A DNA stretch of 64,000 bases from Bacteroidales bacterium. Lineage in GTDB: Bacteria > Bacteroidota > Bacteroidia > Bacteroidales > UBA932. The notes under the pieces are model-generated. The model did no database searches, was not told the DNA's origin, and saw only the letters and a program-made list of their open reading frames with translations. The stretch spans positions 20,643 through 84,642 of the forward strand of contig JAFPVJ010000004.1 of assembly GCA_017400135.1 (NCBI GenBank), written 5' to 3'. A program made the position numbers and the translations under genes. Each line of letters opens with the position of its first letter. Positions within the stretch are counted from its first letter, which is position 1. Below are positions 26,763-47,158 of this stretch, piece after piece.

Positions 26763-26790
26763 TCCTTTGTCAATCAGAGATTCTGTCATG

Positions 26791-26819
26791 TACCCTCTTT
26801 TCGGAGAGGGTATTTTTTT
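26791..26819 (+). terminator. Intrinsic terminator after lspA
   Basis: TACCCTC pairs with GAGGGTA around an 8-nt loop (26791-26812), followed by a run of seven T. It ends the ileS-lspA transcript. Confidence 0.85.
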
Positions 26820-26820
26820 G

Positions 26821-26828
26821 TATATTTG
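26821..26828 (+). promoter_or_regulatory. -7 box (TATATTTG) for the SSS-symporter group
   Basis: TATATTTG lies immediately after the lspA terminator and 25 bp before the ATG at 26853. It probably drives the five-gene group to 33757. Confidence 0.75.
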
Positions 26829-26852
26829 GAAACGGACAAGAAGGCTTTCTCC

Positions 26853-28340
26853 ATGGCTCTGAACGGATTCTCCATACTGGACTGGCTGGTCATCGCCGCT
26901 TTCCTGGCGCTGATGGTCGCGATCGGTTTCCACGTCTCGCGCCGCAACAGGAACGAGACCGATTATGCGCTGGGCGGCCGGAACATGAATCCGTCCATGG
27001 TGGGACTATCCCTTTTCGCCACCCTGATGAGCACGCTCAGCTACCTGTCCTATCCCGGCGAAATGATACGCTACGGCCCTGTGCTCTTCTTCGGCATCCT
27101 GGCTTATCCGCTGGCCTATTTCGCCGTGAAGCGTTTCCTGATCCCCCGTTTCATGGAGAGTAACGTGACGAGCGCGTATGAGATCCTGGAGATCAAGCTG
27201 GGGAAGGGGACCCGGCTGCTGGCGACCGTCTTTTTCCTGCTCCTGCGTTTCCTGTGGATGTCCACGGTCATCTATGCGACGGTCTCCGCCGCGCTGATTC
27301 CCATTTTCGGGATCGATCCGTCCTACACGCCGCTGATCACCATCCTGCTGGTCCTCATCACGCTGCTGTATACTACGATGGGCGGCCTGCGGGCCGTGGT
27401 GCTGACGGACGTACTCCAGTCGGGAATCATGTTCCTGGGAGCGATTCTCGTGATCGGAATCATTGCTTTTCGGATCGGGGATGTGCATCGGATCTTCAAT
27501 CCCTCGCTGATTGGCCACTGGGAGCCGATAGACTGGGGTTTCGATGCGACCAAACGGATGACGGTCGGCAATATCCTGATCATGCGTTTCGTCTGGCAGA
27601 TCTGCACCTCCGGCTCCGACCAGATGGCCATCCAGCGTTATCTGGCGACGAAAGACGTCCGGAGCGCTTCGCATTCATACAAGATTTCGCTGATCGCCAA
27701 CGCCGGCATCGAACTGCTGCTGGCCGCTGCGGGATTCATGGTCCTGGCCTACTTCTCCTACCATCCCGGGATGATGGCTCCGGGGACGAATATAATCGAC
27801 GATGCGGACACACTTTTCCCGCGCTTCATCCTGGTGGGGCTGCCGGCCGGGTTGACCGGCCTCATCGCGGCCGCCCTCATGGCGGCGGCGATGTCCAGCC
27901 TCTCATCGGGCCTGAATTCTTCGGCCACGGTGATCTTGGAGGATATCATCAAGCCCTACGCCCGTCGTCGGGTTCCGGATGAGAAAAAGGATCTCAGGAG
28001 CATCAAGCTCGTCTCGCTTCTGCTGGGCCTGGCCGTGACCGTATCCTGCTGGTTCGTCTCGCGTGTGACGGGCAACCTGCTGGATGTCGTGGTCAAGGTG
28101 GTCAACCTGGTCGTGGCGCCGCTCTTCGTCCTGTTCTTCATGGCCCTGTTCGTCAAGGGCGCGACCGACCGGGGAACGATCTTCGGCGGACTGCTATCCT
28201 TCGCCGTCGCCATCGCCATTTCTTTCTTCGAGATTTTTGGGATCAAACCCCTGTGGATCATGCCATTTGCCTTGATTGCGGGCATCCTGGGAGGTTTAAT
28301 CGCCAGCTTTGTCGGGAACCGTATCAAGAGTTTGAAATAA
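26853..28340 (+). CDS. Sodium:solute symporter (SSS family)
   Basis: The 495-residue product has about 13 membrane helices and typical SSS features: LDWLVIAAFLALMVAIGFHVSRRNRNETDYALGGRNMN at the start, then LFATLMSTLSYLSYPGEMIRYG, and ICTSGSDQMAIQRYLATKD in the core. Start 26853 is chosen because the TTG further upstream overlaps the -7 box. SSS members import sugars, inositols, sialic acid, amino acids or vitamins with Na+; the substrate here is unknown. As first gene of the group, it probably imports the compound handled by the downstream enzymes. Confidence 0.9.
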   Translation: MALNGFSILDWLVIAAFLALMVAIGFHVSRRNRNETDYALGGRNMNPSMVGLSLFATLMSTLSYLSYPGEMIRYGPVLFFGILAYPLAYFAVKRFLIPRFMESNVTSAYEILEIKLGKGTRLLATVFFLLLRFLWMSTVIYATVSAALIPIFGIDPSYTPLITILLVLITLLYTTMGGLRAVVLTDVLQSGIMFLGAILVIGIIAFRIGDVHRIFNPSLIGHWEPIDWGFDATKRMTVGNILIMRFVWQICTSGSDQMAIQRYLATKDVRSASHSYKISLIANAGIELLLAAAGFMVLAYFSYHPGMMAPGTNIIDDADTLFPRFILVGLPAGLTGLIAAALMAAAMSSLSSGLNSSATVILEDIIKPYARRRVPDEKKDLRSIKLVSLLLGLAVTVSCWFVSRVTGNLLDVVVKVVNLVVAPLFVLFFMALFVKGATDRGTIFGGLLSFAVAIAISFFEIFGIKPLWIMPFALIAGILGGLIASFVGNRIKSLK

Positions 28341-28373
28341 ATGTCGTATCTTGTATCGGAAATGACTGTTTCG

Positions 28374-29723
28374 ATGAAAAAGATACTCCCTTTTATCTTC
28401 CTTGTATTGGTTTTCTGTTCTTCCTGCGATGTCCGGAAGAAGGTATTGGTGAGCGGTCAGATGACCGCGGAGCGGATCTATTCCGGGTTCGCGGATGCGC
28501 ACGACACCTACAATGCGATTTCGCCGGCGAGCGACGGCCGGATCTATTATGTGTTGTCCTCTCAGCGCTTTGACGTGGGCGGGCAGTTCTACCGCTACGA
28601 TCCCGCGACGGGGGAGAGCGAGTTTGTCGCCGACCTTTCCGAGGCCCTCGGGGAGAAACAGCAGAACTACATCGCCCAGGGCAAGAGCCACGTGGAGTTC
28701 ACGGAGGCCGACGGCAAGCTCTGGTTCGCCACGCACGCCGGCTACTACCAGATCATCGACGGTGCCGAGCAGATGCCCGTGACGGCCCCGGAGGGCTGGA
28801 AACTCTATCCCGGCGGTCATTTCGTCAGCTACGACATGGCGACCGGGCAGATCGAGGACCTGGCCCTGGCGCCGGCGGGCGACGGCATCATCACGATGGC
28901 GATGGACCGCGAGCGCAAACATCTGTACGGTCTGACCTGGCCCCACGGGATTTTCATCGACTATGACATCACGGACAAGAGCCTGCGCGACCTCGGCCCC
29001 GTCACGAAGGCCGGCGAGATGGGTCTCGGCACGCCCGAATTCCGCGTCATCTGCCGCTCGATGTTCGTGGATCCGCGCGACGGCAATGTCTACTGGTCTA
29101 CGGCCGACGGCGACATCTGGACCTACAACCCGTCCTTCGAGGCGCCCCGGATGGTCGAAGGCGTGGACCTGCGCATCGATTATTTCGGCCACTATGACCC
29201 CGCCGACGCCGGCAGCATGGGCTACAACTGGCGCAAGATCTGCTGGTATGCCCCCGAGGGCAAGGCCTACGGCGTCCACGGCAATTCGGGTTATCTTTTC
29301 TCCTTCGATCCCCGGGAGAAAAAGATCGAGATTATCGAGCGCATCACCTCCGAACCGTCCCGTAAATGCGGCATGGGCGACCAGTTCAGCTACGGCTACC
29401 TCGGATTCACCATCGACCCCCGGGGGACCATCTTCTACCTGACGGGCGCCCCCATCTACAAGGATGGCAAGCGCGTGGCGGGCCTGGACAAGATCAACAT
29501 GGGCGCGGCCAAGGGCCTCGAGTACCTCCATGTCGTGACTTACAATATTCCTGAAAGGCGTTACCAGGACCTGGGACCCGTCTTCTATGAGGACGGCAGC
29601 TTCCCGACCTACGTCAATTCCATCGCCCTGGGCGCTGACGGCAACGTCTACACCCTGGCCCGTTTCCTTCACGAGGGCAAGGAAATCGAAGACCTGATCA
29701 AGATCAAACTGAATTACAGATAG
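28374..29723 (+). CDS. Beta-propeller-like lipoprotein
   Basis: Chosen start 28374 gives MKKILPFIFLVLVFCSSCD, an SPII-like signal; an upstream in-frame ATG at 28341 directly abuts the symporter stop. The 449-residue mature body has repeated short motifs of the D-G-x-I-Y-Y / G-K-L-W-F-A / D-G-N-V-Y-W type, spaced 45-60 residues apart. These suggest a six- or seven-bladed propeller like those in SMP-30/gluconolactonase or vgb-type lyases. No catalytic set is recognised. Its placement between a transporter and exported enzymes suggests a substrate-binding or sugar-lactone role; this is inference. Confidence 0.75.
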   Translation: MKKILPFIFLVLVFCSSCDVRKKVLVSGQMTAERIYSGFADAHDTYNAISPASDGRIYYVLSSQRFDVGGQFYRYDPATGESEFVADLSEALGEKQQNYIAQGKSHVEFTEADGKLWFATHAGYYQIIDGAEQMPVTAPEGWKLYPGGHFVSYDMATGQIEDLALAPAGDGIITMAMDRERKHLYGLTWPHGIFIDYDITDKSLRDLGPVTKAGEMGLGTPEFRVICRSMFVDPRDGNVYWSTADGDIWTYNPSFEAPRMVEGVDLRIDYFGHYDPADAGSMGYNWRKICWYAPEGKAYGVHGNSGYLFSFDPREKKIEIIERITSEPSRKCGMGDQFSYGYLGFTIDPRGTIFYLTGAPIYKDGKRVAGLDKINMGAAKGLEYLHVVTYNIPERRYQDLGPVFYEDGSFPTYVNSIALGADGNVYTLARFLHEGKEIEDLIKIKLNYR

Positions 29724-29726
29724 ACT

Positions 29727-31094
29727 ATGAGCAAGAATATGACCCGCCGGGCCTTCATCACGGCCCTTTCCACCGGGGCGGCCGCCGCTGCCACGGCCAA
29801 CGTGGTGCGTCCGATCGAGAGCGTCACGGCGCTCGCCTCCAAGCACAAGAAACTGGCCCTCTTCGGGGGCACCCCCGTGGCGCCTGACAAGCAGTGGCCC
29901 AAATGGCCCTACGTCGACGAGAAGATCGTCGCTAAGGTGGCGGATACGGTAAGGACCGGCAAATGGTGCCGCAAGGATGTCAAGGGCGGCAACGTGGACA
30001 CTTTCGAGCAGGCTTACGCCGAACTGCTCGGCGCCCGCGGTTGCGTCTGCACCGGTTCCGGCACCCAGGCCCTCCACACGGTGGTCGAGGCCCTGGGCAT
30101 CGGTCCCGGTGACGAGGTCATCACCTCGCCCTATACCGACATGGGCACCATTGCGAGCATCCTCAGCGCCCGCGCCCTGCCCGTGCTGGCCGACATCGAC
30201 AAATACTCCTTCCAAATCGACCCTGAGGACGTCGAGCGCAAGATCACCCGCCACACCAAGGCCATCATGCCCATCCACATCATGGGACAGGCCTGCGAAT
30301 TGGACAAGATCCTGGACATCGCCCGTCGCCACAACCTGAAAGTCATCGAGGATGCCTGCCAGGCCCACCTGGCCGAATACCGCGGGCAGAAATGCGGCAC
30401 CATCGGCGATGCCGGCTGCTTCAGTTTCCAGTCCTCCAAGGTCTTGGCCTGCGGAGAAGGCGGCGGCATCGTGAGCAACAATCCCAAGCTCCTGGAAGAC
30501 TGCTACACCGTCCAGAACCACGGCACGGACCGTCTCGGCCGTTCCGTGACCATCGGCCCCAAGTACCGGATGAACGAGCTCGAGGCGGCCATCCTGCTGG
30601 GTCATCTCGAACTCGCCCTGGAGCAGAATGAAAAACGAAACGAGAACGCCCGCTACCTGTATAAGAAGTTCGAGGGTTTCGAGCCCCTCGTGCCTCAGAA
30701 GCTTTATGAGGGCGGCGAACACGGCTCCTTCTACCTTTACACCTGGTCCTTCCGCGACGAGCACTGGGACGGCATTTCCCGTGAGGCCTTCCTGAAGGCG
30801 GTCGCCGCCGAGGGCATCAAGCTCAGTCCCTACATCAAGAACGGCCTGCACAAGGAGCCCTGGACGGACAATATCCTGGGACGTCGCGAGTATCGTGCGA
30901 TGTACACGCCCGCCCGCCTGGAGCAGTTCAAGGACGAACTCTACCTGCCGGGCGTGGACTGGGTCTGCGACCACATGGTGATGCTCTGGGCCGGCGGTCC
31001 GCTGCTGGCTGGCAAGAAGGACATGGACGACCTCGTCAATGCCATCATGAAGGTCTATGAGAACCGGGAGCAGCTCCGCGGCCTTGAAATCTGA
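29727..31094 (+). CDS. DegT/DnrJ/EryC1/StrS-family PLP enzyme with Tat-like signal
   Basis: The N-terminus MTRRAFITALSTGAAAAATA has twin Arg followed by a hydrophobic stretch, so export by Tat is likely. The 455-residue body is a fold-type I aminotransferase of the sugar aminotransferase kind: GSGTQALHTVVEALGIGPGDEVITSPYT, then IEDACQAHLAEYRGQKCG and FSFQSSKVLACGEGG, with the PLP lysine at K238. These enzymes interconvert keto- and amino-sugars or cyclitols, normally in the cytoplasm. An exported member is unusual for the family as described in antibiotic and LPS synthesis. It follows the propeller gene by 3 bp. Confidence 0.88.
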   Translation: MSKNMTRRAFITALSTGAAAAATANVVRPIESVTALASKHKKLALFGGTPVAPDKQWPKWPYVDEKIVAKVADTVRTGKWCRKDVKGGNVDTFEQAYAELLGARGCVCTGSGTQALHTVVEALGIGPGDEVITSPYTDMGTIASILSARALPVLADIDKYSFQIDPEDVERKITRHTKAIMPIHIMGQACELDKILDIARRHNLKVIEDACQAHLAEYRGQKCGTIGDAGCFSFQSSKVLACGEGGGIVSNNPKLLEDCYTVQNHGTDRLGRSVTIGPKYRMNELEAAILLGHLELALEQNEKRNENARYLYKKFEGFEPLVPQKLYEGGEHGSFYLYTWSFRDEHWDGISREAFLKAVAAEGIKLSPYIKNGLHKEPWTDNILGRREYRAMYTPARLEQFKDELYLPGVDWVCDHMVMLWAGGPLLAGKKDMDDLVNAIMKVYENREQLRGLEI

Positions 31095-31100
31095 CGCATT

Positions 31101-32408
31101 ATGCACGGTTTTCTGATTGCAGCCCTGGTGGGGCTCAAGTTGTTGACCTTCGACGTGGATGCGACGCCGCCCGTAGGCAGTGAGCTGACCTACCAGCAGA
31201 TGGAAGCCTCGTGGGACCTGTCACTGCGGGCGCGGGGCATCGTTCTGCTGGGCGCGGGCGATCCCATCGTCCTTTGCGCCGTGGACTGGATCGGCATAGC
31301 CAATGAGAGCCAGGATGCCTTCAAGGAGGCCCTGGCGGCGGCTGCCGGCACGACGCCGGACCGTGTCGAGGTACATACGCTTCACCAACACGACGCACCG
31401 ATCTGCGATTTCACTTCGGAAAAGATTTGCCTCGAGAAGGGGATGGATCCCGGGCCGTTCGAGGGGACCTTTCAGCGGCAGGTGATTGCGACGCTGGCGT
31501 CCCGGATCGCTGCGACGCTGGATCAGGCCCGCCCGGTGACGGCGGTCGGATTCGGCAGCGCCAAGGTGCGCAAGGTCGCGTCGAGCCGCCCGGTTCGCCT
31601 GCGGGACGGGACGATCGGTACGCGCTATTCTTCGGAGAAACGCCCTGAATACCAGGGACTTCCGGAAGGGCTCATCGATCCAGAGCTCTCCATGGTCAGT
31701 TTTTGGGACGGGGATGAACCGCTGGCAGCGCTGAGCTTCTATGCGACGCATCCGCAGAGTTATTACCGGACGAAGACGGCCAATCCGGATTTCCCGGGCG
31801 TGGCCCGGATGATGATGGACCTGGCCGATCCGGATGTGCTGCACGTCCATTTCAACGGGGCTGGCGGCAACGTCGCGGCGGGGAAGTACAACGACGGTAG
31901 CCACAAGATGCGCCGCATCCTGGCCAAACGGCTCGAAAGGGCGATGCGCAAGGCCTGGCGGCGGACAAAGCGGGCGGACATCGAGTCTGTGGCTTGGGAA
32001 ACCGAGCCGCTGCTGCTGCCCGCCAATGAGAAGATTGCCGAGCTGGAGGATTCCCTGGTTACGCTTGCCCGAGCGCCGCTGACCAACTGTGCCGGGACGT
32101 TGGGTTGGTACCGGCGCCGTGCCGAAGGACGCACGATCAATGCCGCCTGCCTGGCGGTCAATGACGTGCGCGTCCTGTTCATGCCGGGCGAACTGTTCGT
32201 CGAATACCAGTTGGCGGCCAAGAAGATGCGGCCTCGGCAACACGTGGCGATGGCGGCGTACGGGGATTACGGCCCGTTCTACATCGGCACGCGCGAGGCG
32301 TACGAGACGGATATCTATGAGGTGCGCTCGAGCCCGGTGACGGCGGAGTCCGAGGCTATCATCCTGGACAAATTGGAAGTTTTATTGAATAAATGTGATC
32401 GGAAATGA
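31101..32408 (+). CDS. Neutral/alkaline ceramidase-like protein
   Basis: The 435 residues resemble the N-terminal catalytic part of neutral ceramidases and their bacterial relatives: GIVLLGAGDPIVLCAVDWIGI, HTLHQHDAP (metal-binding His near residue 96), SFYATHPQSYYRT (second His region) and FNGAGGNVAAGKYND. True ceramidases hydrolyse the amide of ceramide and carry a C-terminal domain missing here. Members of this length occur in carbohydrate-related clusters with unknown amide substrates. The N-terminus is hydrophobic (HGFLIAALVGLKLL) and may serve as signal or anchor. It overlaps the oxidoreductase gene by 4 bp. Confidence 0.75.
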   Translation: MHGFLIAALVGLKLLTFDVDATPPVGSELTYQQMEASWDLSLRARGIVLLGAGDPIVLCAVDWIGIANESQDAFKEALAAAAGTTPDRVEVHTLHQHDAPICDFTSEKICLEKGMDPGPFEGTFQRQVIATLASRIAATLDQARPVTAVGFGSAKVRKVASSRPVRLRDGTIGTRYSSEKRPEYQGLPEGLIDPELSMVSFWDGDEPLAALSFYATHPQSYYRTKTANPDFPGVARMMMDLADPDVLHVHFNGAGGNVAAGKYNDGSHKMRRILAKRLERAMRKAWRRTKRADIESVAWETEPLLLPANEKIAELEDSLVTLARAPLTNCAGTLGWYRRRAEGRTINAACLAVNDVRVLFMPGELFVEYQLAAKKMRPRQHVAMAAYGDYGPFYIGTREAYETDIYEVRSSPVTAESEAIILDKLEVLLNKCDRK

Positions 32409-33757
32409 CGAACCGGAGGGATTTCTTGAAACAGGCGGCGGCCGGAGTCGCTGCGCTTTCGATGGGGGATTTCGCTTTTGCGGCGCTCCCGCGGCAGGCC
32501 CGTGTGATCGGGGCCAACGATACCGTGCGCCTCGGCGTGGTCGGTGTCAATTCGCGCGGTCGCGCGCTGGCGCAGAATTTCGCCAAGATGCCGCTTTGCG
32601 AGGTGACCAGCCTGTGTGACTGTGACCTTAAGGCGCTCGAGAGCTGCCAGGCGGTGGTGGAGGAAGTGACGGGGAAGCGTCCCCGGGGCGTGCAGGACTA
32701 CCGCAAGATGTTGGAGGACAAGGAGCTGGACGGCATCGTGATCGCGATGCCGGACCACTGGCATGCGACGGCGGCCATCATGGCGATGCGCGCCGGCAAG
32801 CACGTGTACCTGGAGAAGCCCACTTCCCACAATCCGGCGGAGAATGAGATGCTGCTGAAGGCGGAGCGCAAGTACAGCAAGTCCGTGGTGACGGTCGGGA
32901 CGCAGCGGCGTTCGTGGCCGAACTGTGTGGCTGCGATAGAGGAGCTCAAGAGCGGCGCGATCGGCGAGGTGCATTATGCCAAGTCTTGGTACAGCGCCGC
33001 GCGCAAGTCCATCGGCGTGGGCAAGGTCGTTCCTGTCCCGGAGCATTTCAACTGGGATTTCTGGCAGGGACCGGCCAAGCGCGGGCCTGTCTATAAGGAC
33101 AATCTGATCCATTACAACTGGCACTGGTTCTGGCACTGGGGCACGGGAGAAGCGCTCAACAACGGCACCCATTTCGTGGACCTGCTGCGTTGGGGCATGG
33201 ACCTGCGTTATCCGACGAAGGTCACTTCCGTGGGCGGGCGTTACCATTACACCGACGATGACTGGGAGACGCCCGACACGCAGCTGATCTCGTTCCAGTT
33301 CGGGGACGAGGCGTACATTTCCTGGGAAGGCCGCAGCTGCAACAACACCATTGTGGACGGCAGTTCTTCCGGCGTGGCTTTCTATGGATCCAACGGGTTG
33401 TCGTTGTATATGGATGGCGGTAACTCCTACCAGATCCGGGACGTCAAGGGAAAGGTGGTGAAGGATGTGCAAAGCCAGCTGACCTTTACTGAGGGCGATC
33501 GCTTCAATCCGTCCGGCAAGCTGGATTCCTTCCACTTCCAGAACTGGCTGGACGTCATCCGCGGCAAGGCCTCCACGCTGAATGCACCCCTCGAGGAGGG
33601 TTGTATCAGTACGCAATTGATGCAGCTGGGCAATATCGCCCAGCGCGTCGGCCGCTCCCTGGACATCGATCCTGAGACCGGCCGCATCGTCGACGATCCG
33701 CTCGCCATGTCCTTCTGGGCCCGCGAATACGAGCCCGGCTGGGCACCGAAGATCTGA
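32405..33757 (+). CDS. Gfo/Idh/MocA oxidoreductase with Tat signal
   Basis: TNRRDFLKQAAAGVAALSM is a clear Tat signal peptide. The Rossmann domain follows (VRLGVVGVNSRGRALAQNF), with the family motif YLEKPTSHN (catalytic-type Lys about residue 138) and MPDHWHATAAIMAMRAGK. The 450-residue length suits exported members that carry a tightly bound NAD(P), as in GH109-type glycosidases. This one lacks the exact GH109 signature, so I call only the superfamily. It is last of the five-gene group and could oxidise or epimerise the sugar or cyclitol that the aminotransferase also handles. Confidence 0.9.
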   Translation: MTNRRDFLKQAAAGVAALSMGDFAFAALPRQARVIGANDTVRLGVVGVNSRGRALAQNFAKMPLCEVTSLCDCDLKALESCQAVVEEVTGKRPRGVQDYRKMLEDKELDGIVIAMPDHWHATAAIMAMRAGKHVYLEKPTSHNPAENEMLLKAERKYSKSVVTVGTQRRSWPNCVAAIEELKSGAIGEVHYAKSWYSAARKSIGVGKVVPVPEHFNWDFWQGPAKRGPVYKDNLIHYNWHWFWHWGTGEALNNGTHFVDLLRWGMDLRYPTKVTSVGGRYHYTDDDWETPDTQLISFQFGDEAYISWEGRSCNNTIVDGSSSGVAFYGSNGLSLYMDGGNSYQIRDVKGKVVKDVQSQLTFTEGDRFNPSGKLDSFHFQNWLDVIRGKASTLNAPLEEGCISTQLMQLGNIAQRVGRSLDIDPETGRIVDDPLAMSFWAREYEPGWAPKI

Positions 33758-33769
33758 GTGCTGCTGATT

Positions 33770-34035
33770 GGGCCGGATGGCGGGGCGGTATGGGGCACAA
33801 CGCTTCGGGCGGGCTCGGCTTTCCTCCTCCGTTGCTCGACGGCTGACATCCTCCCTTTTAGCCATCGCCTGCGGCGCCGTCTAACGGTCGTCGGACAGAC
33901 GCCGTCGTGCTGCGGTCCCACCACCTCCTTACAGCTGCGCTGCAGGAGTCGGCGAGTCCGCGTCACCGCTTCCTCCGTCGGGCCTCGCTTTCCCGCCCTT
34001 GCTAGCGTGCCCCATACCGCCCCGCCATCCGGCCC
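33770..34035. mobile_element. 266-bp element with perfect 29-bp terminal inverted repeats
   Basis: Bases 33770-33798 are exactly the reverse complement of 34007-34035. The interior is GC-rich and holds several shorter palindromes, with no convincing gene (short ORFs on both strands are low-complexity). The layout is that of a MITE or a long structured repeat. I see no clear target-site duplication at the outer edges (CTGATT before, TGCGTA after). It begins 12 bp after the oxidoreductase stop, so it may also act as a terminator. Confidence 0.7.
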
Positions 34036-34306
34036 TGCGTATCCTGGAAATTCCGCTGCAAAGTCACCCCCTGCGTCCGCTCTCATCGTGACCCCCTCGT
34101 CTGAGGTAACCCCAAAAAGTTTGACGGGTTTTTGGGGTCACCTCATTTATATGAATTATAGCTCCCGTTGTATTCTCTAGCATGGATCCAGGAACAATTC
34201 AAGAGGAGAGAATAATAGGGTTAAAACACGTTGAAACTGCGACAAAACTGCGACTAATAGAAAAAGAAAAAGCACTTACGTCTCCGTAAGTGCTTGATTT
34301 AAAGCC
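34036..34306. other. Intergenic stretch with two hairpins
   Basis: No gene is supported here. Bases 34103-34118 pair with 34129-34144 (16 bp, one mismatch) around a 10-nt loop. Bases 34271-34280 pair with 34285-34294 around TCTC (see terminator entry). The rest is AT-richer than the flanking genes. Confidence 0.6.
34269..34297 (-). terminator. Hairpin beside the tRNA-Pro fragment
   Basis: AAGCACTTACG and CGTAAGTGCTT pair around TCTC, with an A/T-rich flank on each side (T-run when read on the minus strand). It lies just past the 3' end of the duplicated tRNA-Pro piece, the same relative place as the terminator of the intact tRNA-Pro gene, but with different sequence. Confidence 0.65.
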
Positions 34307-34341
34307 GTCTGGATGACTGGACTTGAACCAGCGACCTCCTG
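34307..34341 (-). pseudogene. Partial tRNA-Pro (3' 34 nt), probable attachment-site copy
   Basis: These 35 bases are identical to 35390-35424, which cover nucleotides 40-73 of the intact tRNA-Pro plus one base. Identity ends abruptly at the anticodon stem. Such 3' tRNA duplications are the usual trace of site-specific integration at a tRNA gene. Confidence 0.8.
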
Positions 34342-34378
34342 CTGGTTATTGGCCAGAAAGGTTTGGCTGGGGAGTTTA

Positions 34379-35038
34379 CTACACGCGTATACCATATCGG
34401 GTGCATTTTTTCACCCAAGACCGGCGTTCGGTATCGGAAACGCGCTGAAGGACTTCCAAATAGATGATTTCCTCTCCTGTATGATCTACGCCATGCGTGC
34501 AAACGCAGACCATTGTATCCTTCGACAGGGAAATCAAGCGCCCATTTCCGTCCCAGGAGCTAAACCAAGAGGGCAATGTTATGGCATTGTTCGTGGCATC
34601 GTACGTGAAAGGATCCGTCTCGTATAGACCGGGTTCACTCTTCCACCAGTCTTCGTAGAAAGAAACCGATTGGCCGTCTGCAGAAAAAACAAGGCAGTTG
34701 GGATGGGTTTCATTCTTGGCTGATGAAATCGCAGCTCCGTCCACCAGTACAAACTCTTTAATCACATTCTTACCCATATTGATCTGATAGAGGGCTGTGG
34801 TTTTCCAGCCTTCACCGCATACCTTTTTGAGGACATCTTCTCTTGAAATGGTATTATGGACGACGGGGACCAGGTACTGATACTCAGGAAAGACAGACGA
34901 CACCTTATATTCGAAATCAAAAGCCGAAGAATACAAATCCGGCTGACGTTCAGACTCCGGTTGAAGCGCCTTATCGCAGGAAGGCAGAACCATTAACGAC
35001 AAGGAAAGCGCAAAAGAAAGAATAAAACGGGTGTTCAT
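34379..35038 (-). CDS. Hypothetical lipoprotein
   Basis: The 219-residue product starts MNTRFILSFALSLSLMVLPSC, an SPII signal with lipidated Cys about residue 21. The mature part is rich in aromatic and acidic residues (EDWWKSEPGLYETDPFTYDA, LPSWFSSWDGNG) and ends CTRYGIRV. I recognise no family. Its codons are visibly less GC-rich than those of neighbouring genes. It is the only gene between the partial and intact tRNA-Pro sequences, which suggests it arrived with an integrated element. A TATTTTTG -7 box lies 22 bp upstream. Confidence 0.75.
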   Translation of the reverse strand: MNTRFILSFALSLSLMVLPSCDKALQPESERQPDLYSSAFDFEYKVSSVFPEYQYLVPVVHNTISREDVLKKVCGEGWKTTALYQINMGKNVIKEFVLVDGAAISSAKNETHPNCLVFSADGQSVSFYEDWWKSEPGLYETDPFTYDATNNAITLPSWFSSWDGNGRLISLSKDTMVCVCTHGVDHTGEEIIYLEVLQRVSDTERRSWVKKCTRYGIRV

Positions 35039-35060
35039 AACAAATGAGCCTTAGACAACA

Positions 35061-35068
35061 CAAAAATA
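35061..35068 (-). promoter_or_regulatory. -7 box (TATTTTTG) for the hypothetical lipoprotein
   Basis: CAAAAATA on the plus strand gives TATTTTTG on the minus strand, matching TAnnTTTG, 22 bp upstream of the lipoprotein start. Confidence 0.6.
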
Positions 35069-35097
35069 CCAAATAGACCAAACAATCACAAACAATG

Positions 35098-35333
35098 GGC
35101 TGGGGAGTTTTTTTGGGGGGGGCACCACTGCTCGAAGAGCATTTACCTCGCTGTTCACCGCAAATGGCTCGGCGCACACTCAGAAACAATCTCGCCGTGA
35201 ACAACCCCGCCTATTTGCCCCTGCTGTTCAAACCAAACGGCCACACAAGGGGCCAGGAAGACGACGAGCGTGAACAGCGAGTCAGCCCCCGAAAGCCCGG
35301 AGGGCTGGGGAGTTTGAGGGGCATGCCCCTCAA
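35098..35333. repeat. Intergenic stretch with repeated 13-mer and a 20-bp palindrome
   Basis: The 13-mer GGCTGGGGAGTTT occurs at 35098-35110 and 35303-35315, and a third time at 34365-34377. A perfect palindrome, TTGAGGGGCATGCCCCTCAA, spans 35314-35333 and overlaps the third copy. No gene is supported between 35039 and 35390. Confidence 0.75.
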
Positions 35334-35356
35334 TGGATATAATTGGTCACCAGACC

Positions 35357-35387
35357 AAAAAAGCAGGCACCAGATGCCTGCTTTTTT
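35357..35387 (-). terminator. Terminator of tRNA-Pro
   Basis: AAAAAAGCAGGCA and TGCCTGCTTTTTT pair around CCAGA. The hairpin starts 4 bp beyond the tRNA 3' end on the minus strand and has A/T runs on both sides, so it can work in both directions. Confidence 0.85.
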
Positions 35388-35390
35388 GTG

Positions 35391-35463
35391 TCTGGATGAC
35401 TGGACTTGAACCAGCGACCTCCTGGTCCCTAACCAGGTGCGCTACCAACTGCGCTACATCCAG
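35391..35463 (-). tRNA. tRNA-Pro (anticodon AGG)
   Basis: The 73-nt minus-strand sequence folds fully: acceptor CTGGATG/CATCCAG, D-stem GCGC/GCGC, anticodon stem CCTGG/CCAGG with loop TTAGGGA, and T-stem GCTGG/CCAGT. The discriminator is A73 with C1-G72, which are proline identity elements. The anticodon is AGG, reading CCU, and G37 follows. CCA is not encoded. An A at position 34 is uncommon among bacterial proline tRNAs. Confidence 0.9.
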
Positions 35464-35476
35464 AAGATTGGGACTG

Positions 35477-35484
35477 CAAAGATA
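35477..35484 (-). promoter_or_regulatory. -7 box (TATCTTTG) for tRNA-Pro
   Basis: CAAAGATA on the plus strand, 14 bp upstream of tRNA nucleotide 1 on the minus strand, with a TTTGG-like -33 region near 35498-35503. Confidence 0.75.
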
Positions 35485-35540
35485 CTACTTTTTTGACCCA
35501 AAGCAAATTCTTTTTCAAGAAAATGAGTTATCTTAGCTGT

Positions 35541-36206
35541 ATGAAACGAATTGTGCTTTTTGTCACGCTGTGTGCGTGCCTGGCGCTGTCCTGCACCCGT
35601 CAGCGGCAGGACACTTTGCAGACCGGTGACTTGATTTTCGTCGGCATTCCGGCAGATTATACCTTGGATGACACTTCGATGGATGCCGCCATCACGGAAG
35701 CGACCGGCACTTCTGACAGCCTGACCCTGATCCATGTTGCCATCGCAGAGGTGGATTCGGACGGGCAGCCCTGGATCATTGATGCGACGACTAAATATGG
35801 CGTGGACCGTCATCCGATGGAGACCTTCCTGACGCAGTTCACGCTGAAGGATGGATCTCTGCCTATCTTCAAGGTGATGCGGCTGAAAGACGACCATGTC
35901 GCCGCGACAGCGGTCGAGCGGGCCAAGATCTTCCTGGGCACTCCCTACGACATAGAGTTCCTGCCGGACAACGGGGCCTTCTATTGCTCTGAACTGGTCC
36001 AGGTCAGCTACCTCACGGACGACGGGTCCCGCATCTTCCCTTCGGCTCCGATGAACTTCAAGAACGCGGAAGGGGAGTTCCCCGTCTATTGGACGCAACT
36101 GTTCGCCCTGATCGGCCAGGAGATTCCGCAGGACGTTCCCGGCACCAACCCCCAGGGCATGGCTCAGGATCCGAATCTGAAGCCGGTGAATGTTACCATT
36201 CATTGA
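35541..36206 (+). CDS. YiiX/YebB-like NlpC/P60 cysteine hydrolase lipoprotein
   Basis: Start 35541 gives MKRIVLFVTLCACLALSC, an SPII signal with Cys18; starts further upstream would precede the signal peptide. The 221-residue body matches the YiiX/YebB-like permuted papain-like hydrolases. GDLIFVGIP opens it, LIHVAIAE carries the His and FYCSELVQVSY the catalytic-type Cys. Relatives cleave peptide or amide bonds in cell-wall or lipid substrates; the target here is unknown. A near-consensus box (TATCTTAG, 35529-35536) sits just before the start. The next gene follows at 24 bp. Confidence 0.82.
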   Translation: MKRIVLFVTLCACLALSCTRQRQDTLQTGDLIFVGIPADYTLDDTSMDAAITEATGTSDSLTLIHVAIAEVDSDGQPWIIDATTKYGVDRHPMETFLTQFTLKDGSLPIFKVMRLKDDHVAATAVERAKIFLGTPYDIEFLPDNGAFYCSELVQVSYLTDDGSRIFPSAPMNFKNAEGEFPVYWTQLFALIGQEIPQDVPGTNPQGMAQDPNLKPVNVTIH

Positions 36207-36230
36207 ACGAACCATCAACCAAACCGCTGA

Positions 36231-37259
36231 ATGATGAAAAAACTGACTGTCGCCGTACTCGGCATGATCCTTTCCCTGAGCGCCTTCGCCCAGATGATGC
36301 CGGACTCGACCTTCCAGGTCGTTGCCTATTGGGACAAAGGGGACGCGATCTCATACAATTGTAAGTCCCGTAATGTCCGGATTATAACGGACGGCACCGA
36401 AAACGAACAGTTCTCGACTTCCGACGTCCGTACGTTTGAGGTCATCGACCAGACGGATACGTCGTATACGCTGAGGATGAGCTATTCGGATGCGTTTTCT
36501 TCCCAGTTGAGCGAGGGGCTGGATTCCGACATCTTCTCCACGCTCTGGTCAAAGGAAAAGATTGATTTCCAGACCGACCAGCTCGGGACGCTTCAAAGGT
36601 ATCTGGACCTGGACCGGATGCTGGATAGCGTGGCAGAGAGCGTTCCGGGTGTGGTCGATGAGGTCAGCGCCCGCTACAAGAAAAAGGACCTGAAAGAGAT
36701 GGGCTTTGACAGGGAAGCGTGGATCGAGCGTTTCTCCGCCACCTTCAGCAACCGTGAGATGCTGTACACGGCTTGCAACAAGGACATTGCCCCTTTCTTC
36801 TACTACCACGGCGTCCGTCTCGATCCCAAGCAAGAGTATGTGATTGAAAAGGAATACCCGAACGTTATCGGATCACAAAGCTTAAATGCAGACATGCATT
36901 TCTGGGTGGATGAGGAAAAGAGCGATTCCGTCGCCGTCGTCATCTTTTCCCATGCGGAAGCCGACGGGGAGAGCCTGATTCCTACGCTGCGGGATGCCGC
37001 CCTTTCCTTATTGAGAGCCAGCCTGTCACCGGAGGAATATGAGGAATCCGCCCCTGTGATCATGCTCCAGTTTGACAAGAGCCAGATGAGCATCACCTTC
37101 TCGGAGGACACCGGGACGCTCATCGATCTCGGGAGCGGCTGGCCTGTCCAGTATTTCTCTGAGGTCCGCATCACCATCAAAGCGGCGGACGGGACCTCCG
37201 AGGTGGTTACGACGGTCGATATTGAATATAAAGACCCGGAGGAGGAGGCTAGTCAATAG
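36231..37259 (+). CDS. Hypothetical secreted protein
   Basis: A 342-residue protein with a cleavable SPI signal peptide (MMKKLTVAVLGMILSLSAFAQ). The mature part is a mixed alpha/beta sequence of about 320 residues with no Cys pairs beyond two single cysteines and no recognised motif. It reads like the large Bacteroidota-specific families of periplasmic proteins with a beta-barrel-like repeat of about 70 residues (FEVIDQTDTSYTLRMSYSD, and later VAVVIFSHAEAD). The function is unknown. It follows the YiiX-like gene at 24 bp and overlaps the 3' end of the GH92 gene on the other strand by 11 bp. Confidence 0.75.
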   Translation: MMKKLTVAVLGMILSLSAFAQMMPDSTFQVVAYWDKGDAISYNCKSRNVRIITDGTENEQFSTSDVRTFEVIDQTDTSYTLRMSYSDAFSSQLSEGLDSDIFSTLWSKEKIDFQTDQLGTLQRYLDLDRMLDSVAESVPGVVDEVSARYKKKDLKEMGFDREAWIERFSATFSNREMLYTACNKDIAPFFYYHGVRLDPKQEYVIEKEYPNVIGSQSLNADMHFWVDEEKSDSVAVVIFSHAEADGESLIPTLRDAALSLLRASLSPEEYEESAPVIMLQFDKSQMSITFSEDTGTLIDLGSGWPVQYFSEVRITIKAADGTSEVVTTVDIEYKDPEEEASQ

Positions 37260-39459
37260 GTTCCGGGCCCATCGTGAAGACCAGCGAGCCGCCGGATTGG
37301 ATGGCGGAGAGGGGGAGGGAGGTGCCGGTGAAGGGCTCGCCGTTCAGCGTCATACCCAAAATATAAATGTCTTCGGGGCCGATTTGGGCACCGTCGGCGG
37401 TCTGGGTCCGGATGCGGAATTCCCCGCCGCCGGGCAATGAAACCGTGGCGCTGCGCACCGAGGGACTTCCGATGTCCAGGAGGCCGCTGCAGGGCGCGAC
37501 GGGGTAGAGCCCCAGGGCACTCCAGACGTACCAGGCCGACATCTGGCCGCAGTCGTCGTTGCCGCAGAGGCCGTCCAGGGCGTCGCTGTACATTTCCTTT
37601 TTGATCCGCGCAACCATCTCCTGGGTCTTCCAGGGCTGCCCGGCGTCGTTGTACAGATAGGCGACGTGGTGGCAGGGCTCGTTGCCGTGGGCGTACTGGC
37701 CGATCAGGCCGGTGATGTCCGGCACGACGATGTCATCCGCCGTCAGCTCAGTGGCGAACATTTCATCCAGCTTGGCGCCGAAGGCCGCGGGGCCGCCGTA
37801 CAGCTCGACCATCCGCGCCCGGTCGTGAGGCACGTAGAAGGTGTACTGCCAGGCATTGCCTTCGATGAAATCCTGGTCGTGGGCCGCCGTCTGCAGGGGG
37901 TTGAACGGTTCCTTCCAGCTGCCGTCTTCGCGGCGGGCGCGCATGAAGCCCACCGAAGGATCGAAGACGTTGGCATAATTCCCCGCCCGCTTTTCGAAAT
38001 ACGCAGCCTCGTCATCTTTGCCTAGCTTGCGGGCCACCAGGGACAGGCACCAGTCGTCGTAGGCGTATTCCAGGGTCTTGGAAACGGAACTGTGGTCCAG
38101 GCCCGTGGGAATGTAGCCGTAGACCTTGTAGGGCCAGACGCCGCGGTCCGGGTCTTCCGCGATGGACTTCATCGCCGCCCAGGCTTCCTCGTAGTCGAAG
38201 CCGCCGAGGTCCTGCAGGATGGCGTCCGCAATCACCGGGACGCTGTGGTAACCGATCATGCAGAAGGTCTCGCAGGTGCCGTATTCGTTGATGGGCAGCA
38301 TTCCGATCTGGCGGTAGCGCTCCAGCATGGAGCGGATGAACGCCACATTGCGATCCGGGCAGATGAGGTTGTAGAGCGGATGCACGGCGCGGTAGGTGTC
38401 CCACAAGGAATAGTTGGTGTAGAGCGCGCCTGCCGGCGAATGGTGCACTTCCTTGTCCCAGCCGCGGTAGCCGCCGTCCACGTCGGTGATGAGGTTGGGA
38501 ACGACCATCGTGTGGTAGAGGGAGGTGTAAAAGATGCGTGCCTCTTTTTCCGTGGCGAAAGTGGCCTGGATGGGGGAGAGGGCAGCCTCCCATTGGGCGG
38601 CGGCCTCACGCGCGACCTCGCCGAAAGACTTGTCTCCCAGTTCGGCGAACAGATTGGCCCGAGCCGCTTCGCAACTGACGGTCGAGACTCCGATGCGCAC
38701 GAGCAAGGGCTTCTCCGTGGGAACGGCGACGTGCAGCTTGGTCATGCGCTCGGCGGCCACGCCCGGTTCGAGGGCCTGCCCATCCGCATAGCCTGTCCAG
38801 AACGCCACCGGCTCCGACAGTTCGGCGCAGAAATACAGGACGTGGTTGCTGATGAATCCGTACGAGCGCCGGAATCCCTCGATGTGGCGCCCGTCCGTGC
38901 AGCGGACGTCGGCTTCATAGATGCCGCCGTCGTTGCCGTGGAGCATGTCGAAGAGCAGGCCGGGGCGCTGTTCGGGGCCCTGGAAGGTGAAGCGGTAGAA
39001 GGCGCAACGCTGCGTCGCGGTCATCTCGCAGCGGATCACGTTCTCATCGAGCGTGACGGCATAATAGCCGGGGCGCGCCGCTTCCGAATTGTGATCGAAA
39101 TGCGCGCGATAACCCTCTCCCGGTCCGTTTCCGGGCTCGAAGACGGGGTCTCCGGTCACCGGCGTCAGCAGCAGGTCGCACATATCGGGCGCTCCCGTGC
39201 CGCTCATGTGCGTTTGGGAGAAGCCGAGCAGGGTGTTGTCGTCGTGGTGATAGCCCGCGCAGTGCTGCCAGTCGTTCAGTCCCGTGTCCGGGCTGGGAGA
39301 GACCATGCCGAACGGTACGGTGGCCCCGGGGAAGGTGTGCCCGTTGAAAGCCGTGCCGATCAGGGGATTGACGGCATCGACGAGTTTCGGTTTCGGCTGG
39401 CAGGCAGCCAGCAGAAAGAGAACAGGGAGCAGGACGCCCCATCGACGTGCAGCATGCAT
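37249..39459 (-). CDS. GH92 alpha-mannosidase lipoprotein
   Basis: The 736-residue product begins with an SPII signal (LPVLFLLAAC, Cys about 20). GH92 hallmarks are clear: VNPLIGTAFNGHTFPGATVPFGMVSPSPDT at the start, LGFSQTHMSGTGAPDM, and near the end GLCGNDDCGQMSAWYVWSALGLYPVAP. GH92 are Ca2+-dependent exo-alpha-mannosidases acting on N-glycans or mannans. The linkage preference cannot be read from sequence. It has its own promoter, divergent from the MATE gene. Confidence 0.95.
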   Translation of the reverse strand: MHAARRWGVLLPVLFLLAACQPKPKLVDAVNPLIGTAFNGHTFPGATVPFGMVSPSPDTGLNDWQHCAGYHHDDNTLLGFSQTHMSGTGAPDMCDLLLTPVTGDPVFEPGNGPGEGYRAHFDHNSEAARPGYYAVTLDENVIRCEMTATQRCAFYRFTFQGPEQRPGLLFDMLHGNDGGIYEADVRCTDGRHIEGFRRSYGFISNHVLYFCAELSEPVAFWTGYADGQALEPGVAAERMTKLHVAVPTEKPLLVRIGVSTVSCEAARANLFAELGDKSFGEVAREAAAQWEAALSPIQATFATEKEARIFYTSLYHTMVVPNLITDVDGGYRGWDKEVHHSPAGALYTNYSLWDTYRAVHPLYNLICPDRNVAFIRSMLERYRQIGMLPINEYGTCETFCMIGYHSVPVIADAILQDLGGFDYEEAWAAMKSIAEDPDRGVWPYKVYGYIPTGLDHSSVSKTLEYAYDDWCLSLVARKLGKDDEAAYFEKRAGNYANVFDPSVGFMRARREDGSWKEPFNPLQTAAHDQDFIEGNAWQYTFYVPHDRARMVELYGGPAAFGAKLDEMFATELTADDIVVPDITGLIGQYAHGNEPCHHVAYLYNDAGQPWKTQEMVARIKKEMYSDALDGLCGNDDCGQMSAWYVWSALGLYPVAPCSGLLDIGSPSVRSATVSLPGGGEFRIRTQTADGAQIGPEDIYILGMTLNGEPFTGTSLPLSAIQSGGSLVFTMGPEPID

Positions 39460-39480
39460 AGGAAGGCAGTTTAATCAAAC

Positions 39481-39488
39481 CAAAGATA
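39481..39488 (-). promoter_or_regulatory. -7 box (TATCTTTG) for GH92
   Basis: CAAAGATA on the plus strand, 21 bp upstream of the GH92 start on the minus strand. Confidence 0.75.
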
Positions 39489-39539
39489 TCGTTTTTCCGC
39501 CGACTATGCAACGATAGGTGCGGGAACGGCAAAAAATAC

Positions 39540-39547
39540 TACCTTTG
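39540..39547 (+). promoter_or_regulatory. -7 box (TACCTTTG) for the MATE gene
   Basis: TACCTTTG ends 8 bp before the ATG at 39556, so the mRNA would have almost no leader. Confidence 0.7.
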
Positions 39548-39555
39548 TCTCCGCA

Positions 39556-40887
39556 ATGGAAGGCATGGACGGACATTACGGATACAGGCGCATCCTGCGG
39601 GAACTGTGGCCGATGGTGCTGACCATCATCGTGACCTCGGTCTACAGCATCGTGGACGGCTGGTTCATCTCGAACTATGCCGGCAGTACGGCGTTCGCGG
39701 CGATGAACATCATCTGGCCGGCTGTGGCGATCATTTCGGCCTTGGGGCTGATGGTCGGCGCCGGGGGCAGTGCGTTGGTGTCCAAGACCTTCGGCGAAGG
39801 GAACGTCGAGCGGGGCAACCATACTTTCACGATGCTGATCCGCCTGACTTTCGTCGCGGGTCTGGTCATCTCGGCGTTGTTCTTCCTGGTCATGCGTCCC
39901 GCGGCGATTGCCCTGCGGGCGGAAGGGGAGATGGTCCGCTATGCCGTCCTGTACGGGCGTATCCTCACGGCGGCCCTGCCTGTCTATATGCTGCAACTTG
40001 CCCTCCAGCCCTTCTGCATGGTGGCGGGGAAGCCGGGGATCGCGACGATGACCAGCATCGCCTGCGGACTGACCAATATCATCCTGGATGCGCTGTTCGT
40101 GGCGGTCTGCGGCTGGGGCCTCACCGGAGCGGCCATTGCTACGGCCATTTCCTTCGTGGTTGGCGGCGCGATTCCGACCGTGTTCTTCGCTTCGCGGCGC
40201 AATACCACGCCCCTGCGCTTCCTTCCGGACAGCCCGTCGGACTGGCCCGCCATCGGGCAGTCGCTGTCGAACGGCCTGTCCGAGTTCGTCGGGAATATTT
40301 CCTTCAACGTCGTGGGGATCTGCTACAACCTGCAGCTGATGAAATACATCGGTGAAAACGGTGTGTCGGCCTACGGGGTCCTGATGTACATCGGCTTCAT
40401 CTTCGGCTCGGTCTTCATCGGCTACAACATGGGCATCTCGCAGGTCATTTCCTACAAATACGGGGCAGGGGACAAGGCGGAATTGCGCAGCCTGCTGCAC
40501 AAGAGCTGCGTGCTCATCGCGCTGGCCGGCCTGGCGATCACGCTCGTCATCGAACTCTTCGCGCCCCGGCTGTCCGCCTTCTTCGTCGGATACTACCCGG
40601 CCTTGCGCGACCTGACGACCTACGCGATGCGTATCTACATGATTTCCTTCCTGCTCTGCGGCTTCAACATGTTCGCATCGGCCTGGTTCACAGCGCTCAA
40701 CAACGGCCCTGTTTCGGCGCTGATTTCCTTCACCCGCACCCTGGTCTTCGAGCTGGGCTGCGTCTTCCTCCTGCCCGCCCTGCTGGGCATCGACGGCATC
40801 TGGCTGGCGGTGAATGTAGCCGAAGTCCTAGCTCTCGCCCTCTCCGCCGCCCTGGTCCTGGGCCTGCGGAAACGGTACGGCTACTGA
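39556..40887 (+). CDS. MATE-family efflux transporter
   Basis: The 443-residue product has 12 predicted helices in two homologous halves. MATE features include LRELWPMVLTIIVTSVYSIVDGWFISNYAGSTAFAAMNIIWP and GAGGSALVSKTFGEGN in the first half, and a related segment (NGLSEFVGNISFNVVGICYN) in the second. Members export drugs or metabolites using Na+ or H+. No regulator or partner gene is adjacent. It faces away from GH92. Its last 60 bp are antisense to the degenerate gene that follows. Confidence 0.93.
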   Translation: MEGMDGHYGYRRILRELWPMVLTIIVTSVYSIVDGWFISNYAGSTAFAAMNIIWPAVAIISALGLMVGAGGSALVSKTFGEGNVERGNHTFTMLIRLTFVAGLVISALFFLVMRPAAIALRAEGEMVRYAVLYGRILTAALPVYMLQLALQPFCMVAGKPGIATMTSIACGLTNIILDALFVAVCGWGLTGAAIATAISFVVGGAIPTVFFASRRNTTPLRFLPDSPSDWPAIGQSLSNGLSEFVGNISFNVVGICYNLQLMKYIGENGVSAYGVLMYIGFIFGSVFIGYNMGISQVISYKYGAGDKAELRSLLHKSCVLIALAGLAITLVIELFAPRLSAFFVGYYPALRDLTTYAMRIYMISFLLCGFNMFASAWFTALNNGPVSALISFTRTLVFELGCVFLLPALLGIDGIWLAVNVAEVLALALSAALVLGLRKRYGY

Positions 40888-41516
40888 GTGCCCGCCTCGG
40901 CGGCGGAATAATTCCTTCCTGTCAAGTATGGTTTTTCTGGCCTTTCTGAAAGAGGGGCTAGGTACTCTTCTGAATAAACAAACGGCTATCCAGAAACACA
41001 AACTGTAAAGGGCAGCGAGGAGGATGGTGAGCCAAATATAAATACAAGAATCGTCAGCAATAGAATCTGCTGCATGATGGAGGATGTATACATAAGCAAA
41101 CCCGGCTATGGCAGTGAGGAGGAGTATGGGAAACCACCAACTGTGACTCGCGACCATCAATGCCCATCCCTTAGTGCGTACGATCCCATCTTTCAAATAC
41201 CCGTTCAATTCAGGCTTGTTTTTACCCGGTTTCGCCTCCATTTCGAAGATTTTGAATGCCCCGGGCTCCAGATAATCGCCAAATGTAACTTTAGCGAATG
41301 AATCCTCACTTGGGCCGTTCTTCGGTTCTACCGGGAAACTCTGAATGACTTTAGGGGGCGTACCGGCTCGACGAGCTGGCATGACTTCATATCCTTCAAA
41401 TAGATTCTGAAAGGATTATTAGGAGAGACATCGTCCTTCAGGATGATTTTTTTCGACCCATTGAACAAGCCGATCAAGCCTAACGACCAGTCAAGACATT
41501 GACTTAATGTTGTCAC
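40828..41516 (-). pseudogene. Frameshifted membrane-protein gene
   Basis: Two overlapping minus-strand frames read like halves of one protein. The upstream frame (from 41516) gives MTTLSQCLDWSLGLIGLFNG...DDVSPNNPF. The downstream frame joins near 41383-41420 and gives NLFEGYEVMPARRAGTPPK..., then two membrane helices (FPILLLTAIAGFAYVYIL and IYIWLTILLAALYSLCFW). Neither frame alone is a convincing gene: the second has in-frame TAA codons just upstream. Its C-terminus runs antisense into the MATE gene, which also suggests loss of the original stop. I do not recognise the family. Confidence 0.6.
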
Positions 41517-41605
41517 AAAGTCAGTGACGCCAGTAAAAATAGATAAAAGATAGTTATTCAGTAGTTACATAATAAACAAAAATAGTAAAAAATGTGGATT
41601 TTATG

Positions 41606-41613
41606 TAACTTTG
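41606..41613 (+). promoter_or_regulatory. -7 box (TAACTTTG) for tRNA-Ser
   Basis: TAACTTTG matches TAnnTTTG, ending 26 bp before tRNA nucleotide 1. Confidence 0.7.
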
Positions 41614-41639
41614 CCATCCCGCCGGATGTCGGCGGAATT

Positions 41640-41724
41640 GGAGGTGTGGCCGAGTGGTCGATGGCGGCAGTCTTGAAAACTGTTGAACGGCAACGTTCCG
41701 GGGGTTCGAATCCCTCCGCCTCCG
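41640..41724 (+). tRNA. tRNA-Ser (anticodon TGA)
   Basis: The 85-nt sequence has acceptor stem GGAGGTG/CGCCTCC (one G-U pair), discriminator G, an anticodon loop CTTGAAA giving TGA (reads UCN, mainly UCA), and a long variable arm as in serine tRNAs. The T-loop is TTCGAAT. CCA is not encoded. A promoter lies upstream and an intrinsic terminator 13 bp downstream. Confidence 0.95.
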
Positions 41725-41736
41725 CGAAGTGGTAGC

Positions 41737-47127: not shown

Positions 47128-47150
47128 GGCGTGTCGGAGTTTGATCTTAC

Positions 47151-47158
47151 CAAAGTTA
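47151..47158 (-). promoter_or_regulatory. -7 box (TAACTTTG) for the GH78-like operon
   Basis: CAAAGTTA on the plus strand gives TAACTTTG on the minus strand, 23 bp upstream of the ATG at 47127. It would drive the GH78-like and heparinase-like genes together. Confidence 0.75.

Follow-up and report, generated by a model that had tools for sequence, protein, structure and literature searches.

A conserved gene cluster with a possible role in amino-sugar utilisation, wider than the five-gene operon through which it was found in a Bacteroidales genome

In the genome of a Bacteroidales bacterium (G000; 2.31 Mb in 28 contigs, 88.6% complete), five co-directional open reading frames (ORFs) occupy positions 26853-33757 of a 64,000-nucleotide stretch of contig C23 (G000:C23:20643-84642, hereafter the window), with gaps of 33, 3 and 6 bp between them and a 4-bp ATGA overlap at the last junction. 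The first gene (26853..28340, plus strand, as are the other four) encodes a sodium/solute symporter of the SSS family (PF00474 (SSF), E 7e-41). It is followed by a lipoprotein of an uncharacterised, propeller-like family, here called LIPO (28374..29723), for which a further in-frame ATG lies upstream at 28341; DegT1 (29727..31094), a DegT/DnrJ/EryC1/StrS aminotransferase with a twin-arginine translocation (Tat) signal (PF01041, E 4e-86); CERA1 (31101..32408), a divergent neutral-ceramidase-like protein and putative zinc amidase; and GFO5 (32405..33757), a Gfo/Idh/MocA oxidoreductase with a Tat signal (PF01408 (GFO_IDH_MocA), E 3e-15). No NCBIfam equivalog model was above its cut-off for any of the five proteins; only the models for the SSS superfamily and the Tat-signal domain passed. 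An earlier note on this DNA had described the same five genes, spaced 33 bp or less and with one ATGA overlap, and both the ORF positions and the family profiles agree with it. The analysis presented here indicates that they belong to a real, conserved and apparently undescribed gene set, wider than five genes, that points to amino-sugar utilisation.

Upstream of the operon, a TAnnTTTG element (TATATTTG, 26821..26828, plus strand) lies 24 bp before the first ATG and has the form of what we take to be the -7 box of the Bacteroidota promoter consensus, a candidate for the one promoter named in the earlier note; this motif has 24 matches across the window against 8.24 expected from shuffles. An intrinsic-terminator-like hairpin (26790..26813, plus strand; 10-bp stem, 4-nt loop, TTTTTT after it) sits 3' of lspA, and sites of the same kind number 10 in 9.6 kb against 7.6 expected.

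The association of these genes is not due to chance, since it is found again in distant genomes. A LIPO profile matched 402 stretches in genome_contigs, several of them in some genomes, and the best 80 of these, picked by closeness to the query, gave 79 loci (numbered L) with mostly Bacteroidota labels, a few from metagenome-assembled genomes (MAGs) of Planctomycetaceae and one from a MAG of Eubacteriales. The set contains several loci from some genomes as well as duplicate records (L022 = G171, L053 = G388). Partners were counted where 5 kb or more of sequence flanks LIPO on each side, which holds for 41 loci. ORFs were called longest first, so that longer antisense ORFs displaced some true genes of the window and the LIPO of L020; the window locus was therefore not counted, and L020 is one of the 79 and not of the 41. 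A DegT gene was present in 37 of these loci (missing at L023, L035, L039 and L048) and a CERA gene of any type in 37 (CERA2 in 32, CERA1 in 12), while GFO5 was present in 22, the oxidoreductase types GFOs and GFOl in 22 and 13, and NagP, NagB and NagA in 22, 21 and 19, respectively, with at least one of the three Nag genes in 24. DegT, CERA and GFO thus recur beside LIPO in distant genomes, the symporter excepted, and the operon, which the earlier note had taken for a self-contained system of five genes, is part of a larger conserved cluster.

The commonest order, found in Runella, Dyadobacter and Spirosoma, is GFOs-DegT2-CERA2-LIPO-(DUF7133-HiPIP)-GFO5-NagP-NagA-NagB-(GFOl). The DUF7133/HEAT protein and the high-potential iron-sulfur protein (HiPIP) inside the cluster (L064:11384-13859 and relatives) occur in 9 and 6 of the 79 loci, respectively, and perhaps provide an exported electron-transfer step. 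The window version and this commonest version are bridged by L036, which reads DegT1-CERA1-DegT2-LIPO-CERA2-GFO5-GFOs-NagP-NagA-NagB. CERA1 lies directly 3' of DegT1 in 7/7 ORFs (L007 and L022 being the same record); similarly, CERA2 or a CERA2-LIPO fusion lies directly 3' of DegT2 in 43 of 63, frequently with a 4-bp overlap. CERA2 and LIPO form a single ORF in eight loci, and in two more whose ORF ends at a contig edge, which suggests that the two are tied functionally.

The symporter stands apart from this conserved set. It passes TIGR00813 (200 bits, cut-off 184), and its closest solved relative (E 4e-48) is 5nv9, a 'putative sodium:solute symporter' that we take to be the sialic-acid transporter SiaT. 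No SSS symporter was found at any other LIPO locus (blastp with E up to 1e-10 against called ORFs), so that, of the loci examined, only the window has this protein, which the earlier note counted as a system member and which is rejected here as a core member.

The presence of NagP, NagA, NagB and N-acetylhexosaminidases with the cluster points to substrates of the N-acetylhexosamine (HexNAc) class. In L064, NagA passes TIGR00221 (284.1 against 225.65 bits) and has N-acetylglucosamine (GlcNAc)-6-phosphate deacetylases as its best solved matches. NagB of the same locus resembles glucosamine-6-phosphate deaminases and reaches the PF01182 cut-off, failing TIGR00502 (127.1 against 236.9); for the transporter, the NagP model NF046060 is the best of all, below its cut-off (379 against 625). 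NagP, NagA and NagB occur together in nine of ten loci, that of the window genome included, the tenth (G171) being NagP-NagB-GFOs. In the window genome itself, NagB-NagP-NagA lie on contig C10, divergent from GFOs and with 55-61% identity to cluster members, and its NagA also passes TIGR00221 (273.5 bits). This NagB occurs in 11 of 199 family genomes, both DegT carriers among them (hypergeometric p 0.003, without phylogenetic correction); those carriers of a DegT of the window type (E up to 1e-60) are the window genome and G171, which belong to the same genus. GH20, GH109 and GH123 are N-acetylhexosaminidase families, and they were found five, four and three times, respectively, among 86 scanned proteins of 130 listed operon neighbours. 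Further families in this tally, which holds the 25 commonest of 88 matched, were phosphodiesterase (6), Gfo (6), DUF4861 (4), 3-keto-disaccharide hydrolase (2) and heparinase-like (2). The amino-sugar substrate put forward in the earlier note therefore gains from the genes adjoining the cluster in relatives: a HexNAc-class substrate is predicted with good reason for the DegT2-type clusters, and less firmly for the window operon, which is of the DegT1 type.

DegT1 is a member of the DegT/DnrJ/EryC1/StrS family (PF01041, 289.9 against 19.8 bits), and the pyridoxal phosphate (PLP) lysine Lys238 and Asp209 of DegT are kept in all 66 aligned sequences. Its best solved matches are scyllo-inosose aminotransferases (E 4e-55), WbpE (3nu7) aligns with it at E 1e-43, and no NCBIfam subfamily model was passed. 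Together with inositol dehydrogenase models, which match GFO5 only below cut-off, these matches speak for the aminocyclitol or inosose metabolism considered in the earlier note, in which DegT and GFO would interconvert an aminocyclitol and an inosose. However, the likeness of DegT1 to inosose aminotransferases is a family-level resemblance, the DegT and Gfo similarities to such enzymes being at the level of superfamilies, and the 25 commonest of the 88 families in the 86 neighbours include none that is specific to inositol; the loci instead have Nag genes, and the neighbours hexosaminidases. Such a role is thus very unlikely.

For GFO5, the best NCBIfam model is NF058561 (BT_2158 glycoside 3-dehydrogenase), reached with 140 bits against a cut-off of 750, and the protein appears to be a distant relative of that enzyme. 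Lys138, Asn252 and His256 are kept in 28/28 GFO5 sequences, and the solved relatives 8tdf and 7xr9 carry Asp where GFO5 has Asn252. An oxidative cleavage of HexNAc glycosides can be envisaged from this resemblance: GFO would oxidise C3, the 3-keto sugar would be cleaved by elimination, and LIPO, CERA and DegT (acting as a PLP deaminase or eliminase) would handle the keto-amino products. BT2158 is described as a periplasmic glycoside 3-dehydrogenase (PMC11300592), and both 3-keto-disaccharide hydrolases (2/86) and GH109 proteins (4/86) are found among the neighbours. Against such a route stand the low score with the BT_2158 model, the Asn that replaces the Asp of solved relatives in every GFO5 and the rarity of the 3-keto hydrolase neighbours; overall, it is possible but rather doubtful.

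The ceramidase-like protein of the window fails the PF04734 (Ceramidase_alk) cut-off (17.2 against 32.1 bits). CERA1 is assigned to the PF04734 superfamily because one CERA2 paralogue passes this model (52.6 bits) and CERA2 members align with CERA1 members at E values down to 1e-13. His95, His97, His217, Glu364 and Tyr394 are identical in 26/26 CERA1 and 43/43 CERA2 and may form a zinc site. In four loci, CERA1 carries an extra C-terminal region, recognised by length; in the one scanned, L025, Pfam identifies it as an esterase-like alpha/beta hydrolase. Both this domain and the ceramidase superfamily itself, along with the type I phosphodiesterase/pyrophosphatase proteins in 6 of the 86 neighbours, would suit an N-deacylation of glycolipids, in which CERA would strip lipid A or the head groups of glycosphingolipids of their amide-linked fatty acids, leaving the head-group amino sugar to be salvaged by the remaining proteins. 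The only fatty-acid name in the 25 commonest neighbour families is, however, that of a single short-chain-dehydrogenase protein, which also matches PF13561, and CERA1 aligns only remotely with the solved ceramidase 2zws (E 0.66, in two short pieces only). Glycolipid N-deacylation is therefore considered unlikely. Literal sphingolipid metabolism was also considered as the lead reading and rejected.

No Pfam or NCBIfam model was above its cut-off for the LIPO of the window, hence its assignment as a propeller is weak. The commonest weak Pfam matches in 41 LIPO relatives were to SSL_N (26), SBBP (14), Kelch_6 (9) and Reg_prop (8), all of them propeller-type families. The beta-propeller named in the earlier note is thus weakly supported by these sub-cut-off matches in relatives and not by the window protein, for which none passes. 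A self-comparison of LIPO for blade repeats (hhalign) gave marginal, sub-optimal alignments only (E 2e-4, probability 49%). In a sample of the phylum drawn regardless of similarity, LIPO was found in 6 of 395 genomes, the window genome included, each with E < 1e-140. Three histidines of the family, His106, His121 and His302, are invariant. A MAG with a Planctomycetaceae label carries a fusion of LIPO with a GH16 domain (L040:3284-5383).

The Tat-signal model TIGR01409 is above its cut-off of 16.7 bits in both DegT1 (19.3) and GFO5 (22.7). A leader rule of our own (a twin Arg with an uncharged stretch after it) was applied to ORFs with a complete 5' end, a few records being included twice. By this rule, 63 of 65 DegT and 27 of 27 GFO5 have a Tat-like leader, against none of 25 NagA (one with a Sec-like stretch) and none of 26 NagB; a Tat- or Sec-like leader was found in 22 of 25 CERA1 and 37 of 43 CERA2. 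Further, where a fused CERA2-LIPO ORF has a leader, this would place LIPO outside the cytoplasm. These leaders, present in the relatives of DegT and GFO5 and missing from NagA and NagB, agree with the export proposed in the earlier note and suggest that the cluster probably encodes an exported system for an amino sugar, in which PLP and NAD(P) chemistry is combined with an amidase-like reaction and with uptake. The leader of the window CERA1 is unusually short, and export of this protein is uncertain. An ordinary biosynthetic operon for nucleotide sugars was rejected on account of the Tat-like leaders and the Nag and hexosaminidase neighbours.

It could be argued that the window organism makes no use of the Tat-like leaders and that its enzymes act in the cytoplasm, as TatC was not found in the window genome, the CERA1 leader is short and many LIPO have no leader. 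By the same rule, 32 of 73 free-standing LIPO have a leader and 41 do not, although at least three of the latter (L007, L022 and L025) do have one behind a start that was placed too early. Of 199 genomes of the family, however, 179 have TatC, as do 16 of the 18 others that belong to the same genus. Because TatC is so common in the family and genus, its lack in an 88.6% complete genome may be an assembly gap, and the contrast between the leaders of DegT and GFO5 and the 0/51 of NagA and NagB also argues against enzymes of the cytoplasm. Cytoplasmic action is accordingly improbable.

Taking this evidence together, we tentatively favour, at a little short of even confidence, a reading in which the operon provides the first, extracytoplasmic part of a salvage pathway for N-acyl-amino sugars of the HexNAc class; the later part would be the cytoplasmic NagP-NagA-NagB, which adjoins the cluster in many relatives and lies on another contig here. 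From the gene set, its linkage and fusions, the predicted leaders and the conserved catalytic residues, we infer a substrate, a compartment and an order and direction of reactions as follows. Hexosaminidases would release the sugar, and the putative zinc amidase CERA, with the LIPO propeller, would remove an N-acyl group at a position where amines are uncommon, such as C3 of a 2,3-diamido sugar. DegT would then convert the freed amine to a ketone through PLP, and GFO, with bound NAD(P), would reduce (or first oxidise) the ring carbon to yield ordinary GlcNAc or N-acetylgalactosamine, which would be imported by NagP (here by the SSS symporter) and broken down by NagA and NagB. The more specific proposal contained in this scheme is put forward with low confidence: that a PLP aminotransferase and a dehydrogenase with bound NAD(P), both Tat-exported, act outside the cytoplasm with a ceramidase-fold amidase that is fused or coupled to a propeller protein, and turn unusual N-acylated (e.g. 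2,3-diamido) sugars into a common HexNAc, which a single ordinary Nag pathway could then degrade.

Several observations weigh against the salvage reading, among them the leaderless LIPO, the missing TatC and the remote alignment of CERA1 with ceramidase mentioned above. The link with Nag genes is mostly one of DegT2-type clusters: among the six distinct DegT1 records (L022/G171, L025, L026, L036, L080 and L086), only L036 has Nag genes nearby, and only L026 and L036 have GFO5. Similarly, the co-occurrence of DegT and NagB is weak within the genus (p 0.088), and nine family genomes have this NagB without the DegT. In the phylum sample, the five other LIPO genomes, viewed over about 20 kb each, include two with DegT (L016 and L019), three with CERA (L016, L017 and L019) and two with Nag genes (L015, whose contig ends just upstream of LIPO, and L016), and L018 is without any partner. 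Finally, a transaminase in the periplasm would need an amino acceptor.

The site at which the operon lies can be compared with that of relatives. A match to lspA was found in 54 of 61 genomes of the genus, and the loci of 11 relatives were compared with the window. The tRNA-Ser gene (41640-41725) lies within about 100 bp of lspA in six of them (L100, L101, L103, L105, L109 and L110), within about 1 kb in two (L102 and L108) and outside the 1.5 kb compared in three (L104, L106 and L107). Since lspA and tRNA-Ser lie close together in most of the relatives compared, the window genome carries about 14.9 kb extra between them (26763-41639). This extra stretch also codes for a GH92 protein, a C92 peptidase-like protein and a MATE transporter, and no integrase family was found among eight ORFs scanned in it. 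The GH92 (alpha-mannosidase family) protein is encoded on the minus strand at 37252-39459, with a possible link to N-glycans. Just past the operon, 29-bp perfect inverted repeats (33770-33798 and 34007-34035) bound an element whose inner part has a copy with 80% identity at G000:C14:7662-7843. A tRNA-like fragment seen by eye at 34310-34345, about 1 kb before a complete tRNA-Pro (35390-35463), is possibly an integration scar. Elsewhere in the window (42221-47163 and 62561-63958), a heparinase II/III-like protein, an alpha-L-rhamnosidase and a glucuronate isomerase form a second carbohydrate region.

The gene set recurs across Bacteroidota, as the 402 LIPO-encoding stretches indicate, and neither a description of it nor a published function was found in the open-licence literature, in line with the earlier note, which knew of no described pathway of this kind. 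If the salvage reading is true, amino sugars would be transformed by PLP and NAD(P) enzymes outside the cytoplasm, an unusual site for transamination, and roles would be gained for the new family LIPO and for a branch of sugar amidases within the ceramidase superfamily. The module offers clear testable substrates and culturable hosts.

Among known systems, GnnA/GnnB and WbpB/WbpE are reportedly pairs of Gfo/Idh/MocA and DegT enzymes that install 3-amino groups on UDP-sugars, in the cytoplasm and for biosynthesis. The window cluster shares this pairing, and its proposed route would be the reverse of theirs; unlike them, it has Tat-like leaders, a partner resembling an amidase and neighbours with catabolic functions. 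A likeness to neutral ceramidase (2zws) is seen in the CERA2 that passes PF04734 and in the candidate zinc His, Glu and Tyr residues that are invariant in CERA, whereas CERA1 remains below cut-off, at E 0.66 to 2zws, in a gene context of sugars and not lipids. The three genes of the NagP-NagA-NagB cassette for GlcNAc have relatives that sit in the cluster in its commonest arrangement, and also on another contig of the window genome. In contrast, a Tat-type DegT, CERA, LIPO and GFO are part of no Nag pathway in the open-licence literature searched, and the transporter and NagB of L064 are below the curated equivalog cut-offs. The BT2158 system of Bacteroides thetaiotaomicron (PMC11300592) likewise has an exported sugar dehydrogenase of the Gfo/Idh/MocA type in a setting of sugar utilisation; the accessible part of that report mentions no PLP enzyme or amidase, and GFO5 is far below the BT_2158 cut-off (140 against 750). 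An exported sugar 3-dehydrogenase being already known in Bacteroides from BT2158 (PMC11300592), the NAD part of the proposed system has a precedent, and the exported aminotransferase with its amidase-propeller partner would be its unusual part.

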